This document shows, piece by piece, positions 30,984 to 37,179 of a stretch of 44,671 nt of DNA (position 1 is the first letter of the stretch; every line of letters starts with the position of its first letter). The DNA is taken from positions 1 through 44,671 of the forward strand of contig JABDIN010000040.1 of assembly GCA_013003715.1 (NCBI GenBank), in the 5' to 3' direction. The notes below the pieces were generated by a model. The model had not been told where the DNA came from and did not search any database. It saw only the letters and a program-made list of their open reading frames with translations. The position numbers were made by a program, and so were the translations under genes. This stretch comes from Desulfobacteraceae bacterium (GTDB lineage Bacteria > Desulfobacterota > Desulfobacteria > Desulfobacterales > Desulfosarcinaceae).

Positions 30984-33230
30984 ATGCCTGATTGGACCAA
31001 GGCTTTCATATTGGGAGTTCTACTCAGTGTGCTGGGGGTCGCGTTGTGTTTTTCGCCGCCCGGGCACCAACTTGAGGAGTCGTTCGGCCTTGGACTGCTC
31101 TTTAAGATCAGGGGTCCGCGGAAACCACCTGAAGAGGTTGTTGTCATCGGCATCGATCAGGCATCGGCAAGGGCCTTGAACCTGTCGGAGAAACCGGAAA
31201 GATGGCCCAGAATCCTTCATGCCCGGTTGCTCCGGGCGCTCTCGGAAGTCGGTGCCGGGGTTGTCGCTTTTGATATCATTTTTGAGGAACCTCGTGATCC
31301 AGCGCATGACAATGCCCTGGCAGAGGCCATGCAAATGGCCGGGAATGTCGTACTTGTTGAGGTTCTGCGCAAAGAAAAACTACCCTTTGATTCCACCACA
31401 TCTCCGTCTTCAGGGCAGATAAAAATCGAAAAACTCATCCAACCCATCGATCTGTTCAAGGAAGTCAGCGTGGGACTTGCGCCCTTCCCTATCCCGAAGG
31501 TTCCGGTGAGGGTAAGTCAATACTGGGCGTTCAAAACAGGCGCTGGAAACCTGCCGTCGCTTCCAGTGGTAGCATTTCAGGTTTTTGCCCGGAACGCTTA
31601 CGAGGATTTTCTGGATCTGATGGCCACCGGGGATGCCCTCATCGCGGAGGGTTTGCCGTCGGACCGGGAGCGGCTTTTATCTGCCGGCAATGTACACAAA
31701 ACGGTGCGGACCATCCGTGACCAGTTCGAGGCGAATCCGGCGCTGGCGTCGACCATGCGTGCGGAGTTATCCATCTCCGGCGCTAAGCACCCGCCGCTGC
31801 TGATCCCGCTTATCCGCATGTATGAGGGCCGGGACAGCCGATACCTGAATTTCTACGGCCCTCCGGGCACCATCAGGACCATCCGGTATCATGAGTTGGT
31901 GGATGTCGGGAACGGCGCAATTAACCGGGAGTTGCTGTCGGAACTTAAAGGGAAAGCCTTGTTTATCGGGCTTTCGGAAAGAGAGATGCCCATCAAAACG
32001 GACGGTTTTTATACGGTTTATTCTCAACCGGACGGTGTGGACCTGAATGGTGTGGAGATCGCGGCCACCGCATTCGGGAATCTGCTGGAAAACAAACCGG
32101 TCCGCACCCTTTCGCCTTTCCTGCTGATCCTGGTGATTGCGATGTCGGGGGTGATCCTGGCCTTCATCTGCCGGATGATGAGCTATACCCCGGCCGGTCT
32201 TGTCTCGATTGTTTATTGCGCAATCTTCATCTGGGTCGTCGGGCTGGGTTTCGCTGCCGAAGGCTGGTTTTTTCCATTGGTCACGGTGGTTTTTTTTCAG
32301 GGGCCGCTGGCATTCACTACCGGGGTCATCTGGCGGTATGTGGACGTCAATAAGGAACGCAAGGCGATCCGTCACGCATTCAATTTTTACCTCCCACCGT
32401 CGGTGGTGGATCAGATCGCCTCCGGTAAAAAAGCGATAACCGCGGACGGGCGGGTTCGCCATGGCGCTTTTTTATGCACGGATATGCAACACTACACGAC
32501 CTTATCGGAAAAAACCGATCCGGAAAAACTCTATCGGTTCATGCATGGCTATTTCGAAACCCTGCTGGCGCCGGTGCGACTCAACGGGGGACTGATTTCG
32601 GATATTGTGGGGGACTCGATGATGGCCATCTGGGAAGATAAGACACCGGGTGCATCGTCCGGCCGAAATGCCTGTGAGTCGGCCCTTCAAATTCAGCGGG
32701 CGCTGGTGGATTTCTGGGCGGCGAATCCCCTGAACGCGACGTTTCCCACTCGAATCGGCATTCACTGCGGCCCGGTTCACATCGGTAATGTCGGCGCCGG
32801 TGACCACTATGAATATCAGGCAACCGGCGATACGGTAAATACCGTGTCTCGTATCGAAAATCTCAATAAACACCTGGGAACGCAAATCTTAGTCTCCGAA
32901 GAGGCGCTCGAAGGCGCAGCGGGTTTTCTGGTTCGACGCATGGGATCGTTCATCCTGAGCGGCAAATCCAACCCGGTGCCCGTCTATGAACTGATCACCT
33001 GGCAGGCGCTTGCCGACTCATCACAGCAGGAATTGTGCCTGCTATTCGATCAGGCCTTGGCCGTCTATCATGAACAGAATTGGAACGAGTCGGCTGAACG
33101 CTTCGATGCGATACTCAACCGGTATCCATCAGACGGCCCTTCCATGTTCTACAGGGATACCTGCAGGCATTATGCTGCAAACCCACCGGAACGTGACTGG
33201 GATGGTGTGATGAATGTGATGAAAAAATAG
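30984..33230 (+). CDS. CHASE2-domain adenylate/guanylate cyclase
   Basis: 748-residue inner-membrane receptor cyclase. An N-terminal TM helix (residues about 7-24) precedes a large extracytoplasmic CHASE2 sensor (about 30-370; VVVIGIDQASARAL, GVVAFDIIFEEPRDP, FIGLSEREMPIKTDGFYT). Three TM helices follow at about 375-460, then a class III cyclase domain (about 490-650). The domain has CTDMQHYTTLS with a metal-binding Asp, ISDIVGDSMMAIW with the second Asp region, GIHCGPVHIGNVG and GDTVNTVSRIENLNK carrying the transition-state Asn and Arg. It predicts synthesis of cAMP or cGMP in response to an envelope signal. The next gene (FecR-TPR-barrel) starts 150 bp downstream, suggesting a functional pair. 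Confidence 0.93.
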   Translation: MPDWTKAFILGVLLSVLGVALCFSPPGHQLEESFGLGLLFKIRGPRKPPEEVVVIGIDQASARALNLSEKPERWPRILHARLLRALSEVGAGVVAFDIIFEEPRDPAHDNALAEAMQMAGNVVLVEVLRKEKLPFDSTTSPSSGQIKIEKLIQPIDLFKEVSVGLAPFPIPKVPVRVSQYWAFKTGAGNLPSLPVVAFQVFARNAYEDFLDLMATGDALIAEGLPSDRERLLSAGNVHKTVRTIRDQFEANPALASTMRAELSISGAKHPPLLIPLIRMYEGRDSRYLNFYGPPGTIRTIRYHELVDVGNGAINRELLSELKGKALFIGLSEREMPIKTDGFYTVYSQPDGVDLNGVEIAATAFGNLLENKPVRTLSPFLLILVIAMSGVILAFICRMMSYTPAGLVSIVYCAIFIWVVGLGFAAEGWFFPLVTVVFFQGPLAFTTGVIWRYVDVNKERKAIRHAFNFYLPPSVVDQIASGKKAITADGRVRHGAFLCTDMQHYTTLSEKTDPEKLYRFMHGYFETLLAPVRLNGGLISDIVGDSMMAIWEDKTPGASSGRNACESALQIQRALVDFWAANPLNATFPTRIGIHCGPVHIGNVGAGDHYEYQATGDTVNTVSRIENLNKHLGTQILVSEEALEGAAGFLVRRMGSFILSGKSNPVPVYELITWQALADSSQQELCLLFDQALAVYHEQNWNESAERFDAILNRYPSDGPSMFYRDTCRHYAANPPERDWDGVMNVMKK

Positions 33231-33380
33231 GTTGATAGCTGATATATTTTTGAATAGGTTAAGGATATCCACATCGCATGAACATATCCAATGTGACAAA
33301 CACACCCACCGGCATTATCTGAATCGCTACAAAAGCGCGAACTGGCCTGGTTACAAATTGGACGGACAAGGAGATCACAG

Positions 33381-36300
33381 GTGCAAAAAGGACGACTTTT
33401 AGCAGGACTATCTATTTTGGTATGGATGTTATTGCTGCCGGGGCACCCCTCTGCCTCTGCTTCGGAATGTGACAATTGGATGGCTGAAGCCGTATCCGTG
33501 CAGGGGACCGCCCAGATGAAAAAAGACGGCGGCACCACATGGCAAAACATTTCCGCCGGTGATCGATTTTGCGCCGGCGACATGATACGCATCCTGGAGG
33601 ACAGCCGTGCCGCCATAGTACTGCAAAACGAAGCGGTGATCCGGCTTGATGAAAAAACCACCATTACCCTGCAACCGGAGCCGGAAACGACATCCACCTT
33701 ACTGAGAATCATCAGGGGTGCGGCGCATTTTTTCAGCCGTATCCCCAGAAGTCTTCAAGTGGCCACGCCGTTTGTGAACGGGTCGGTTGAAGGCACTGAA
33801 TTTTTCGTTCGCGTGGACGACCGGCAGACCTATTTTTCCGTTTTTAAAGGCAGGGTCAGGACGTTCAATGAAGCGGGCGAACTGCTGTTGGCCGCCGGAG
33901 ATACCGCCGTTGCAACACAGGGCGGACGGCCGGAGCTGAAAATGGTGATCCACCCGCGAGATGCTGTGGCCTGGACACTCTATTATCCGAAAATAAGTGG
34001 TTCGGACACACGGACGGCGGAAGCGTTGGAACAGGCCGGTACCTATCTCGATGTGGGCCGTGTGGACAAGGCAAATGTTATTCTGGACCGTCTGTTGGCG
34101 GAAGACCCGACGAACGGTGACGCACTTGCGTACAAAACGGTCGTCGAACTGGCACGGAACCGAAAAGCAGCGGCAAAAACACTTTCCGAAAAGGCCCTTG
34201 CCGCCGACCCGCAATCCGTGACGGTGAAAATGGCGGTTGCGTATGTCCTGCAGGCGGATTTCGAGATCGAAAAGGCGCGCGACACCTTGATTGCCGCCGC
34301 CGTGGATGATCCCGGCAACGCGCCACTCCATGCCCGAATATCCGAGCTTTGGTTGGCCTCCGGACATTTGGACAAGGCATCGGCCGCGGCCGGAAAAGCC
34401 GCCGCCTTGTCGGCCGATCAAAGCAGACCCCACACCATTATGGGGTTTGCCCATCTGTCACGGTCCGACATCGATGCGGCTGTGGTCGCCTTTGAAAGGG
34501 GAGCATCCCTTGATCCGGCCGATCCCCTGCCCCGTCTGGGACTCGGTATTGCATGGATCAGATCCGGCGACCTGAAGGCCGGCAGGGGACAAATCGAAAT
34601 CGCCGCATCGCTTGACCCGGGGAATTCTCTCGTGCGCAGCTATCTCGGCAAGGCTTTCTATGAAGAACGGCAGACCCGCCTGGCCGGCCGGCAGTATGAG
34701 GTGGCCAAGGAACTGGACCCCAACGACCCCACCCCCTATTTTTATGATGCCCTGTTGAAACAAAGCGAAAACCGGCCGGTTGAGGCCCTTCACCAATTGC
34801 TGCAATCCATTGCACTCAATGACAACCGGGCCGTCTATCGATCACGGCTGCTGTTGGATGAAGATCTGGCGGCCCGGAGTGCGGGTCTGGGGGAAATATA
34901 TGCCGATCTCGGCTTTCAGCAACTGGCGATGGTTCAAGGATGGAAATCCATAAACACAGATCCATCCAATTACTCCGCGCACCGGCTGCTTTCCAATGTT
35001 TACGCCGCCCGGCCCCGAAACGAAATCGGCAGGGTCAGTGAAATGCTCCAATCAATGTTGTTGCAGCCATTGAATACGGCCCCGATTCAACCCCGGCTGG
35101 CGGAAACGGATCTTCTCATCACCGACGGATTGGGGCCGGCATCCCCTTCCCTCAATGAATACAACGCCTTGTTTTTAAGAAATCAATTCCGCCTGCAGGC
35201 TTCCGGCATAGCGGGCAGCAATGACACCTTCGGAGATGAAATATCTCACAGCGGGTTGTGGAACCGGTTTTCATACAGCCTGGGGCAATTGCATTATGAA
35301 ACCGATGGATTCAGAAGCAATAACGAATTAAACGAGGATCTTTATACTGCCTTTGCCCAGGTGACCCCGACACCCTGGATCAGCGTTCAGGGAGAGTACC
35401 GGCGGCAGGAAGTCGAACATGGCGACCTTGCCTTCAATTTTGACCTGGAAACCTTTGATGATACGTTGGAAAAAGAAAAGGCATCCGATACCATGCGGCT
35501 CGGATTGCACTTGCAGCCCTCACCAGCGTCGAATCTTATCGCATCGGTCATACACCAGAATACCACCAACAAGGAGGAGTCGATATTCATCGGCCTGTTT
35601 CCATACGAATTGACGCTGGACACCACCGGCTATCTTTCGGAAATCCAATACCTGTATAAACACGGGTATTGGAATCTGACATTGGGCGCCGGCCATTACA
35701 ATGTGGAGTCAACCATCCGGAGCACCTTTTCCGAAGAAGCCGAATTTGATACGACGCATGACAATGGATACGCCTACCTGAATTTCAGTTATCCGAAAGC
35801 CTTCGACTGGACCCTCGGGGTCAGTGCGAATGCGCTGGACGACAGCCCCATCGGTGATACGGACAAGGTGAATCCGAAATTCGGCCTGACCGCCGATCTG
35901 ATTCCCGGCACGACCCTCCGGCTGGCCGGCTTCACGGTGCTCACCCGTGACCTGGTCAACGACCAGACCATCGAGCCCACCCAGATAGCCGGTTTCAATC
36001 AATTTTACGACGATTTCAACGGCACCGAATCCGCACAGGTCGGCGTCGCCCTGGACCAGATGTTCACGGCGAACGTCCACGGCGGGGTTGAGTATTTCAG
36101 GCGGATGCTGGAAGTGCCCACCATCGGCCTCACCGGCACCATCACCGAGGACTGGGAGGAAGATGCATACCGGGCATATCTCTATCTCACCCCGTCCCGT
36201 GAAATCGCCATCAGCGCCGAATATCAATTCGAAGTGTTTGACCGTGACGTGAAGGATGAATTCGGCATTACGCCCATCGGGATGAAAACCCATTTGCTGC

Positions 36301-36602
36301 CGGTGGCCTTCAAGTACTACCACCCGTCGGGTTTTTTCGGTAATTGCGGTGCCACCTATGTCAATCAGGTCGTGGAACCGGCCGGGGGCGGAGACGACCT
36401 GGAAGACGACTTTACGCTGGTGGATGTCGGCGTCGGATACCGGCTGCCGAACCGCCGGGGGGTGTTCAGCATCGGCGTTAAAAACCTGTTCGATCGGGAA
36501 TTCGATTACATGGGTCTGGACACGCGGACATCCCAGGATCCCAACAATCCGCCCTTTTTACCGGAAAGAACCTTTTTCGCCCGGATTTCACTGGCGTTTT
36601 GA
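33381..36602 (+). CDS. FecR-TPR-outer-membrane barrel fusion protein
   Basis: 1073 residues in three parts. A signal peptide (about 1-27, ending in SASA) is followed by a FecR domain (about 35-180: GDRFCAGDMIRILEDSRAAIVL, GSVEGTEFFVRV, FKGRVRT). Next are about eight TPR-like repeats (about 215-500; for example AGTYLDVGRVDKANVILDRLLAEDP). The C-terminal half (about 590-1073) is rich in alternating beta strands and ends in GVKNLFDREFDYMG and a terminal Phe, like the end of a TonB-dependent receptor barrel; no plug domain is seen. The start is GTG at 33381 with AAGGAG upstream. It probably sits in the outer membrane with FecR and TPR parts in the periplasm, facing the CHASE2 cyclase encoded just before it. 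The combined architecture is unusual. Confidence 0.85.
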   Translation: MQKGRLLAGLSILVWMLLLPGHPSASASECDNWMAEAVSVQGTAQMKKDGGTTWQNISAGDRFCAGDMIRILEDSRAAIVLQNEAVIRLDEKTTITLQPEPETTSTLLRIIRGAAHFFSRIPRSLQVATPFVNGSVEGTEFFVRVDDRQTYFSVFKGRVRTFNEAGELLLAAGDTAVATQGGRPELKMVIHPRDAVAWTLYYPKISGSDTRTAEALEQAGTYLDVGRVDKANVILDRLLAEDPTNGDALAYKTVVELARNRKAAAKTLSEKALAADPQSVTVKMAVAYVLQADFEIEKARDTLIAAAVDDPGNAPLHARISELWLASGHLDKASAAAGKAAALSADQSRPHTIMGFAHLSRSDIDAAVVAFERGASLDPADPLPRLGLGIAWIRSGDLKAGRGQIEIAASLDPGNSLVRSYLGKAFYEERQTRLAGRQYEVAKELDPNDPTPYFYDALLKQSENRPVEALHQLLQSIALNDNRAVYRSRLLLDEDLAARSAGLGEIYADLGFQQLAMVQGWKSINTDPSNYSAHRLLSNVYAARPRNEIGRVSEMLQSMLLQPLNTAPIQPRLAETDLLITDGLGPASPSLNEYNALFLRNQFRLQASGIAGSNDTFGDEISHSGLWNRFSYSLGQLHYETDGFRSNNELNEDLYTAFAQVTPTPWISVQGEYRRQEVEHGDLAFNFDLETFDDTLEKEKASDTMRLGLHLQPSPASNLIASVIHQNTTNKEESIFIGLFPYELTLDTTGYLSEIQYLYKHGYWNLTLGAGHYNVESTIRSTFSEEAEFDTTHDNGYAYLNFSYPKAFDWTLGVSANALDDSPIGDTDKVNPKFGLTADLIPGTTLRLAGFTVLTRDLVNDQTIEPTQIAGFNQFYDDFNGTESAQVGVALDQMFTANVHGGVEYFRRMLEVPTIGLTGTITEDWEEDAYRAYLYLTPSREIAISAEYQFEVFDRDVKDEFGITPIGMKTHLLPVAFKYYHPSGFFGNCGATYVNQVVEPAGGGDDLEDDFTLVDVGVGYRLPNRRGVFSIGVKNLFDREFDYMGLDTRTSQDPNNPPFLPERTFFARISLAF

Positions 36603-36714
36603 AATGCAATGGTATTCCGGCTTTCCGATGCCGTTTTTCCATAAATAAATGTATGCATATGCGGGATTTTGGTGAGTTCAACCCCACAACCCACAACCCG
36701 AAGGGAGGAAAAGG

Positions 36715-37179
36715 ATGAACAGAAATCATGGTAGTGCGCTTGTTAGAATTTTTATCTGCTGTGTTTCAGTGACAATGGTTTTATTGTTTTTCGGGTGTCA
36801 GCACCTTGTCGGCACCAAACCGGATCCGGTTGGACAACTGCCACCCGATGATTCGCTCAAACGGCCAGTTTACACAGGATGGGAGCATGCGCCGGTGTCA
36901 AAGGCCCTCACAGACTGGGCGGTAAAAAACGACACACGCATGTTTGTTTTCGTCACCATGCAGGGGGAAGTCAGAATCTCGGACATCAATGGCAATGAGA
37001 TCAAGCCCTGCGGTATTATCGACGGCACCGAGATCAAGCCATATGAAAACAATCGATGCAAGGAGTTGTCCGGCGTCACCATCACCAACATCAATGACGA
37101 GGTGACCTTGACCACCACCGGCAGTCCGCACTGTGTGACCAAAAAAATAGATGGGTACCTGATTCAGGTGTGTAATTGA
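36715..37179 (+). CDS. Small lipoprotein, unknown
   Basis: 154-residue secreted lipoprotein. The N-terminal signal (basic NRNHGSALVR, then hydrophobic IFICCVSVTMVLLFF) ends in a lipobox FFGC, predicting lipidation at that Cys (about residue 28). The mature part has four further cysteines near the C-terminus (CGIIDG, RCKELSG, HCVTKK, VCN), suggesting two disulphides. No family recognised. GGGAGG lies just upstream of the ATG. It follows the FecR-TPR-barrel gene by 112 bp in the same direction and may be an accessory of that envelope system. Confidence 0.78.
   Translation: MNRNHGSALVRIFICCVSVTMVLLFFGCQHLVGTKPDPVGQLPPDDSLKRPVYTGWEHAPVSKALTDWAVKNDTRMFVFVTMQGEVRISDINGNEIKPCGIIDGTEIKPYENNRCKELSGVTITNINDEVTLTTTGSPHCVTKKIDGYLIQVCN

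Follow-up and report, generated by a model that had tools for sequence, protein, structure and literature searches.

Outer-membrane control of an inner-membrane nucleotide cyclase has, in the literature that we found, been shown solely for the symbiont S. meliloti. The available portions of the published work describe NsrA as an outer-membrane receptor that is needed together with the cyclase CyaK for the response to uL2 protein, with a barrel at residues 600-1200 and 57 acidic residues in its outer loops (PMC7529298); the same link is restated in the available text of a second report (PMC13001267), and in these portions NsrA is placed upstream of CyaK in cyclic AMP (cAMP) signalling by genetics (PMC7529298, PMC13001267). 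Here we describe a locus of similar architecture in a Desulfobacteraceae bacterium, located at positions 30984-37179 of contig JABDIN010000040.1 (assembly GCA_013003715.1), of which the whole 44,671-nucleotide stretch that was analysed is referred to as the window. Its three open reading frames (ORFs), all on the forward strand and lying where an initial annotation of the window had placed them, encode a predicted cyclase (CYA), a FecR-TPR-barrel protein (FTB) and a small third protein. As in the NsrA-CyaK system, which operates with CyaD1/CyaD2 and Clr, a FecR-TPR protein (~1200 amino acids (aa) in NsrA) with a barrel in its C-terminal half adjoins a CHASE2 class III cyclase. All computed evidence favours a conserved unit that signals from the outer membrane to a cyclase, diverged within the NsrA-CyaK kind and marked by at least two features specific to its branch; we consider it probable, at roughly 0.72, that the FTB locus encodes an NsrA-CyaK-type trans-envelope signalling system. 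What is new is the divergence of the cyclase base-recognition pair, an FTB-linked family of small proteins, clustered cyclic nucleoside monophosphate (cNMP)-binding genes, and co-divergence between the FecR/TPR parts and CHASE2. The genes and their parts are as follows.

30984-33230, forward strand: CYA, 748 aa, predicted inner-membrane CHASE2 class III nucleotide cyclase (Pfam, AlphaFold)
31032-32153, forward strand: CHASE2 sensor domain of CYA (Pfam, aa 17-390)
32448-33008, forward strand: catalytic domain of CYA (~aa 489-675)
33381-36602, forward strand: FTB, 1073 aa, GTG start, NsrA-like FecR-TPR-beta-barrel protein
33381-33461, forward strand: signal peptide of FTB (~aa 1-27, end set by eye; helix 3-18 in the model)
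33585-33860, forward strand: FecR domain of FTB (Pfam aa 69-160, E 9.8e-14; beta-rich over ~aa 35-187 in the model)
34017-34817, forward strand: TPR array of FTB (helices aa 213-479; best Pfam TPR stretches aa 213-450)
34818-35102, forward strand: linker helices of FTB (aa 480-574; helices 496-561 in the model)
35184-36599, forward strand: predicted outer-membrane barrel of FTB (aa 602-1073, 22 strands, no plug domain)
36715-37179, forward strand: small third gene, 154 aa, lipoprotein-like N-terminus and C-terminal Cys/aromatic tail

Each gene is preceded by a Shine-Dalgarno-like sequence, and the intergenic gaps measure 150 bp (CYA to FTB) and 112 bp (FTB to the small gene). Promoter- and terminator-like sites at the locus are no more numerous than in shuffled sequence, and an Rfam search of the window gave no match. 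The initial annotation had assumed that FecR domains relay signals to anti-sigma factors; this needs correcting, as in classical cell-surface signalling FecR itself acts as the anti-sigma factor. Seven genes lying between 28388 and 43254 were scanned with Pfam, and none has a sigma-factor domain.

That a single chain carries a signal peptide, a FecR domain, TPRs and a plugless barrel resembling TonB receptors, as had been proposed from the sequence, is upheld by Pfam and by an AlphaFold2 model of FTB. Built on a 73-sequence alignment, the model reaches a mean predicted local distance difference test (pLDDT) score of 87 and a predicted template modelling (pTM) score of 0.86, and places 22 strands at residues 602-1072, with helices rather than a plug fold ahead of the first of them. 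All 50 of the matches listed by Foldseek against the PDB are TonB-dependent receptors (E 5.7e-15 to 8e-13, probability 1.00). In VIA-align, TPR proteins rank at the top (Z 19.9, for the TPR part) and TonB-dependent receptors align at Z 17.6-19.2 with a root-mean-square deviation of 3.1-4.1 over 410-479 residues; this list says little about the FecR part, and its rows include neither Slam nor BcsC, which excludes nothing. The last ~480 aa match no Pfam family, and no plug, STN or barrel/TonB-receptor model at E 0.1. Overall, the C-terminal half is confidently predicted to fold as a 22-strand, TonB-receptor-like, plugless barrel. Its predicted extracellular loops are acidic, with a net charge of -36 in the window's FTB and a median of -20 (range -42 to +2) over the 73 rows of the alignment. 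Among the FTB parts compared, the linker helices (aa 480-574) are the most conserved. Within the barrel, the most conserved 12-residue segments fall in the loop after strand 13 (aa 855-882, 35943-36026, DQTIEPTQIAGFNQF), which strand parity places on the extracellular side.

Searching plasmids by tblastn with CYA pointed to cyaK of S. meliloti. Immediately upstream of cyaK lies a gene annotated as a 'FecR domain-containing protein' of 1190 aa, with a FecR domain (E 3.1e-15) and TPR repeats; its record gives no gene name, and from its position and size we take it to be nsrA, which is presumably the gene upstream of cyaK in S. meliloti. BLASTP aligns FTB to this protein with E 2e-11 over the FecR-TPR region (22% identity) and with a weak, collinear barrel match (E 0.006), and hhalign aligns the two over nearly their full length (probability 100, E 3.1e-41, 1002 columns). 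The initial annotation had considered the unit a new type of system. Given this homology, and since NsrA acts upstream of CyaK in print, the mechanism is instead supported in kind and is not new. NsrA and FTB also have acidic extracellular loops in common, and a counterpart of the conserved loop at aa 855-882 is visible in the alignment to the NsrA-type protein. The two branches differ in gene order, the cyclase coming first in the window and second in S. meliloti, and in their neighbours: the three rhizobial nsrA-type loci have a PycTM-family gene and no match to the small protein, whereas a hidden Markov model (HMM) of PycTM built from L179 and L182 finds no match in FTB loci. As a side observation, this PycTM-family gene (PF18967, a Pycsar effector family; DUF5706 in S. 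meliloti) is divergent beside the NsrA-type gene in 3/3 rhizobial loci (L182:3192-3737 and L179:5184-5723 by Pfam; L180:5184-5741 by the HMM built from those two).

Three other described systems are among the closest. A Campylobacterota cluster (PMC9239204) combines a CHASE2 adenylate cyclase with a FecR outer-membrane protein and differs, as described, in having a separate TPR gene and a phosphodiesterase. A Burkholderia/Pseudomonas operon likewise pairs FecR with CHASE2, joining a CHASE2 histidine kinase to a LysM-FecR protein, but differs in its two-component output and LysM domain, and the available part of the source mentions no TPR or barrel (PMC5192318). FTB shares a FecR-type domain and a 22-strand, TonB-receptor-like barrel with FecA-FecR-FecI; unlike that system, it holds barrel and FecR in one chain and has no plug or STN domain, and the sigma/FecR pair of this genome lies elsewhere (L008).

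The pairing of the FecR-TPR-barrel protein with a CHASE2 cyclase, which the initial annotation had put forward as a unit whose co-occurrence should be checked, recurs and is conserved across genomes far above chance. The source genome has three CHASE2 and three FecR regions, two of each forming CYA-FTB pairs (the window, and a second CYA-FTB-small set, C29 or L007); the third FecR region follows an extracytoplasmic function (ECF) sigma-factor gene (L008). Across 60 genomes (the source genome and its relatives), 34 of 101 FecR matches have one of the 134 merged CHASE2 loci no more than 6 kb away, in 29 cases on the same strand, against ~0.9 such neighbours expected at an assumed genome size of 4.6 Mb. 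A scan of GTDB contigs recovered 438 FTB relatives; the 80 best, from 79 loci, were retained, so that close relatives are over-represented. These loci contain 81 FTB ORFs. For 51 of them, a cyclase-domain gene on the same strand ends at most 600 bp upstream; another 14 have a CHASE2 gene within 6 kb, among them L067 and L077, where the cyclase also lies directly upstream of FTB but with overlapping ORF calls. FTB relatives occur in Desulfobacterales, Nitrospirota, Gammaproteobacteria, Burkholderiales, Nitrosomonas, Brocadia, Methylomirabilota, Poribacteria and Rokubacteria, and within the phylum the FTB barrel is rare (5 of 198 genomes, the source genome included, at E 1e-15).

Periplasmic contact between the FecR/TPR parts and CHASE2, as initially suggested, is favoured by co-divergence in pairs with an upstream cyclase. 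We compared pairwise distances, with bootstrap intervals, over 49 such pairs (in L112 the cyclase is upstream by 0.8 kb). CHASE2 distances correlate with those of the TPR (r 0.708) and FecR (r 0.661) parts more strongly than catalytic-domain distances do (r 0.427 and 0.459, respectively), the bootstrap difference being 0.278 [0.113, 0.438] for TPR and 0.202 [0.077, 0.339] for FecR. The barrel has no clear preference (r 0.505 with CHASE2, 0.457 with the catalytic domain; difference 0.048 [-0.100, 0.191]). This pattern fits direct periplasmic contact between FecR/TPR and CHASE2 in the regular pairs. Several observations weigh against this interpretation and against the signalling system as a whole. 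When seven pairs with the cyclase at another position are added (56 pairs in all), the correlation of FecR with CHASE2 drops to r 0.356, and to 0.117 as a partial correlation given the catalytic part; shared descent inflates all of these correlations, which were computed without species-tree control, and the structure models are of single chains only. Among the 81 FTBs, 11 have no CHASE2 gene within 6 kb (5 more, at contig ends, were not judged). Finally, the base-recognition pair of CYA is of neither adenylate nor guanylate type, its cyclase activity being a prediction, and the window gave no match to a cNMP-binding HMM, the nearest case in the source genome lying 1.85 kb from the second copy of the locus.

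In the mechanism that we propose, the plugless 22-strand barrel would anchor FTB in the outer membrane, leaving the FecR domain and TPRs in the periplasm. A surface ligand (in S. meliloti, the protein uL2 is reported to act via NsrA) would shift the arrangement of barrel, TPRs and FecR; the altered contact of FecR/TPR with the periplasmic CHASE2 domain of CYA would then change the activity of the cytoplasmic class III cyclase. The resulting cyclic nucleotide (cAMP, or another given the odd base-recognition pair) may act on CRP-type regulators, often encoded beside such loci, and the small third protein probably serves FTB as an accessory ligand, a lid or a modulator. Recurring in Desulfobacterota, Nitrospirota, Gamma- and Betaproteobacteria and others, this architecture would amount to a general class of envelope signalling. 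The data also suggest that FecR proteins, rather than small molecules, may often be what CHASE2 reads, its ligands being largely unknown; the FecR/TPR-CHASE2 contact can be mapped with the help of the 49 paired sequences, and both the odd base-recognition pair and the additional small gene lend themselves to direct tests.

The assignment of CYA as a CHASE2 cyclase holds, with Pfam matches to CHASE2 (E 9.8e-27, aa 17-390) and Guanylate_cyc (E 2e-12, aa 497-663). In its AlphaFold model (pLDDT 88.5, pTM 0.69), helices 378-398, 401-426 and 432-466 follow or overlap the end of CHASE2, and we infer that they may represent transmembrane segments and a signalling helix; the catalytic domain resembles the structures of CyaB, OaPAC and Cya2. 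The metal-binding Asp residues D500 and D544 and the transition-state residues N619 and R623 are all present, and among 61 cyclases (that of the window and 60 from FTB loci) they are conserved in 61, 61, 59 and 61 proteins, respectively. The base-recognition pair is D540/Q612, positions confirmed by alignment to CyaB (3r5g) and Cya2 (2w01). At the position of the adenylate-cyclase Lys, the 61 proteins have Lys once, Asp in 34, Asn in 15 and other residues in 11, and the commonest pairs are D/R (26) and N/R (11). By contrast, all 13 control cyclases with CHASE2, encoded in related genomes at a distance from FTB genes, have K/T (every cyclase-type protein among 20 CHASE2 regions, plus L055). The partner cyclases of the three rhizobial NsrA-type proteins have a K/S pair, and CyaK has K plus S where the window's CYA has D/Q. 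According to the available part of one source, adenylate cyclases use K-D and guanylate cyclases E-C or E-G, and some enzymes of either class have T at the second position (PMC4215837). The pair of CYA is neither Lys with Asp/Thr nor Glu with Cys/Gly, and this non-canonical pair leaves the cyclase product uncertain; on chemical grounds, D plus R could suit guanine.

One alternative starts from this pair and holds that the CYA branch makes neither cAMP nor cyclic GMP, acting on another base (for example to give cCMP or cUMP) or serving as a silent scaffold, with a different messenger or none. In its favour, Lys is found in 1/61 FTB-locus cyclases against K/T in every control, and in a midpoint-rooted FastTree of catalytic domains, a grouping given without support values, the FTB-locus cyclases except L092, L119, L122 and L125 form one clade apart from the controls and CyaK. 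The conserved metal and transition-state residues and the R-S-A motif of most of the linked CRP-like proteins described below argue the other way, and the PADLOC PycC matches give no support for pyrimidine use; we regard this alternative as rather unlikely. The Pycsar pyrimidine-cyclase label itself, which PADLOC gave with a PycC match of E 1.1e-14 lying in the general class III domain, was rejected because a CyaK-type rhizobial cyclase fits the PycC model better (E 3.7e-28).

Candidate receptors for a cyclic nucleotide cluster at these loci. Pfam gives 17 cNMP-binding matches in the 5.5 Mb of the source genome; 10 of these served to build an HMM, the excised segments of the remaining 7 having translations interrupted by stops. 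After removal of duplicates, 89 loci (1.48 Mb) yielded 27 genes that match this cNMP-binding HMM, and for 20 of these an FTB or cyclase gene is no more than 1.2 kb away. From the frequency in the source genome ~5 would be expected overall, the two models differing in sensitivity. The binding signature GE...R[S/T]A is kept in 19 of the 23 genes inspected, and the linked CRP-like proteins mostly have R-S-A, which is usual in cAMP receptors. In L040 and L041, a gene divergent from FTB has two cNMP-binding domains (by Pfam in L040; by the HMM and two signatures in L041). At L040:2922-6106 the two domains form part of a fusion with an oxidoreductase 20-kDa-subunit domain, after which comes a NiFe-hydrogenase gene, and it is possible, judging from these domains, that this locus encodes a cyclic-nucleotide-controlled hydrogenase.

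The third gene had been read as a Cys-rich lipoprotein. Its ORF and hydrophobic N-terminus are there, and the Cys residues of its tail recur in relatives; a scripted pattern flags FICC at residue 16, and LLFFGC at residue 28 is by eye the likelier lipid site, yet neither is a clean lipobox, so that the protein is at most a plausible lipoprotein. The ORF matches no Pfam or NCBIfam family. Short genes are often found behind FTB, with a variable N-terminus and, at the very C-terminus, a tail like NPxCxWxxxxGxWYxxC. An iterated HMM from 24 hand-picked seeds behind FTBs, searched against 11,233 ORFs of 91 loci, gave 31 matches at E<0.05 in 30 loci, of which 29 begin within 1 kb behind FTB, one overlaps the FTB end (L062) and one lies 3.6 kb off (L125); L185 and L186 gave no match at E 0.05. 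Because the seeds were picked behind FTBs, the fair test lies outside the training set. A six-frame search of the 60 genomes returned seven matches at E<=5e-6, all directly behind FTB, of which G005 and G013 are new (G013 has ~80% DNA identity to training loci and is not fully independent); an eighth match, at E 0.016 inside a 1288-aa frame, was taken as chance. The 198 genomes of the phylum added one new match, G212, with the order CYA-FTB-small and no megablast match to training loci. For four close members, synonymous codon differences outnumber nonsynonymous ones in the reading frame in 6/6 comparisons, and the reverse holds in the other frames. Pfam and NCBIfam have no model describing the 31 proteins, with scattered weak matches at best (Choline_bind_1 in 3/31, E 0.0007). 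Together, these data indicate that the third gene belongs to an unnamed, diverse family of small proteins whose significant genome-wide matches are all behind FTB genes.

Four other ideas about this gene were discarded. It is not unique to the window, the small ORFs behind FTB genes forming a family that BLASTP had missed. A lipoprotein as a family-wide feature was rejected, as 9 of the 31 proteins have a hydrophobic N-terminus (the start of L062 being doubtful) and 22 do not; a common location for all of them is therefore unlikely unless export is unconventional. The 110-aa and 389-aa ORFs frequent in some Nitrospirota loci were dropped as partners when the HMM matched other, nearer ORFs, and an electrostatic fit to the acidic loops is unsupported, the last 80 residues having a net charge of -3 to +8 (-3 in the window). 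At some FTB loci a larger ORF of 232-331 aa, with an N-terminus that looks like a signal peptide by eye, stands behind FTB instead (L042:4560-5555, L070:6444-7403, L081:4020-4892, L095:3662-4360).

The small family and the unusual cyclase together allow a second alternative, namely a three-part system distinct in mechanism from NsrA-CyaK. Here a dedicated, self-encoded small protein with a C-terminal Cys/aromatic hairpin would act on the barrel as its cognate ligand or plug, giving a self-reporting or cell-cell signal, and the cyclase, with D/N plus R at the base-recognition positions, would represent a new specificity class that makes a messenger other than cAMP; as a whole, this combination seems doubtful. 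A third would make FTB an export channel of the Slam/BcsC kind with the small protein as cargo, FecR reporting its transit and the CHASE2 cyclase monitoring secretion. The TPR-plus-barrel layout, the weak matches of the TPR region to the BcsC (E 0.00054) and PrsT models, and the small, diverse gene that in many loci sits behind FTB and has its significant genome-wide matches solely there all suit export. Yet the predicted 22-strand barrel resembles ligand receptors, FTB matches no Slam (SlipAM) or BcsC C-terminal barrel model in Pfam or NCBIfam, 22/31 small proteins have no N-terminal hydrophobic stretch, and NsrA acts in signal perception according to the available text of PMC7529298, with no small-protein match in the three rhizobial NsrA-type loci; we consider export quite improbable. 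Very improbable, finally, is that FTB and CYA are merely co-regulated neighbours that make no contact, with a barrel for uptake or adhesion and a CHASE2 domain that senses its own ligand: the 11 FTBs that stand alone, and the absence of a nearby FecR gene at most CHASE2 loci (34 of the 134 merged loci being the nearest partner of a FecR match within 6 kb), are outweighed by a pairing that spans many phyla, by an association of FecR with CHASE2 that extends to further FecR types and to CHASE2 proteins of different output (HD domain, hybrid histidine kinase, cyclase, CHAT, SpoIIE), by domain-specific co-divergence, and by the NsrA-CyaK work, in the portions available (PMC7529298, PMC13001267).

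Beyond FTB, CHASE2 genes scanned beside other FecR genes have HD_5, hybrid histidine kinase, cyclase or CHAT outputs, and the one in L055 has no further Pfam domain. With such varied outputs, the CHASE2-FecR pairing looks like a general interface with exchangeable outputs. At one FTB locus (L081:4974-7187), a CHASE2-SpoIIE phosphatase gene lies 1 kb behind FTB and replaces the cyclase. Short FecR genes (~150-250 aa) stand upstream of CHASE2 genes in L135, L136, L137, L139, L142 and L143, and in all of these except L137 the CHASE2 partner was seen to have an HD_5 or hybrid histidine-kinase output.

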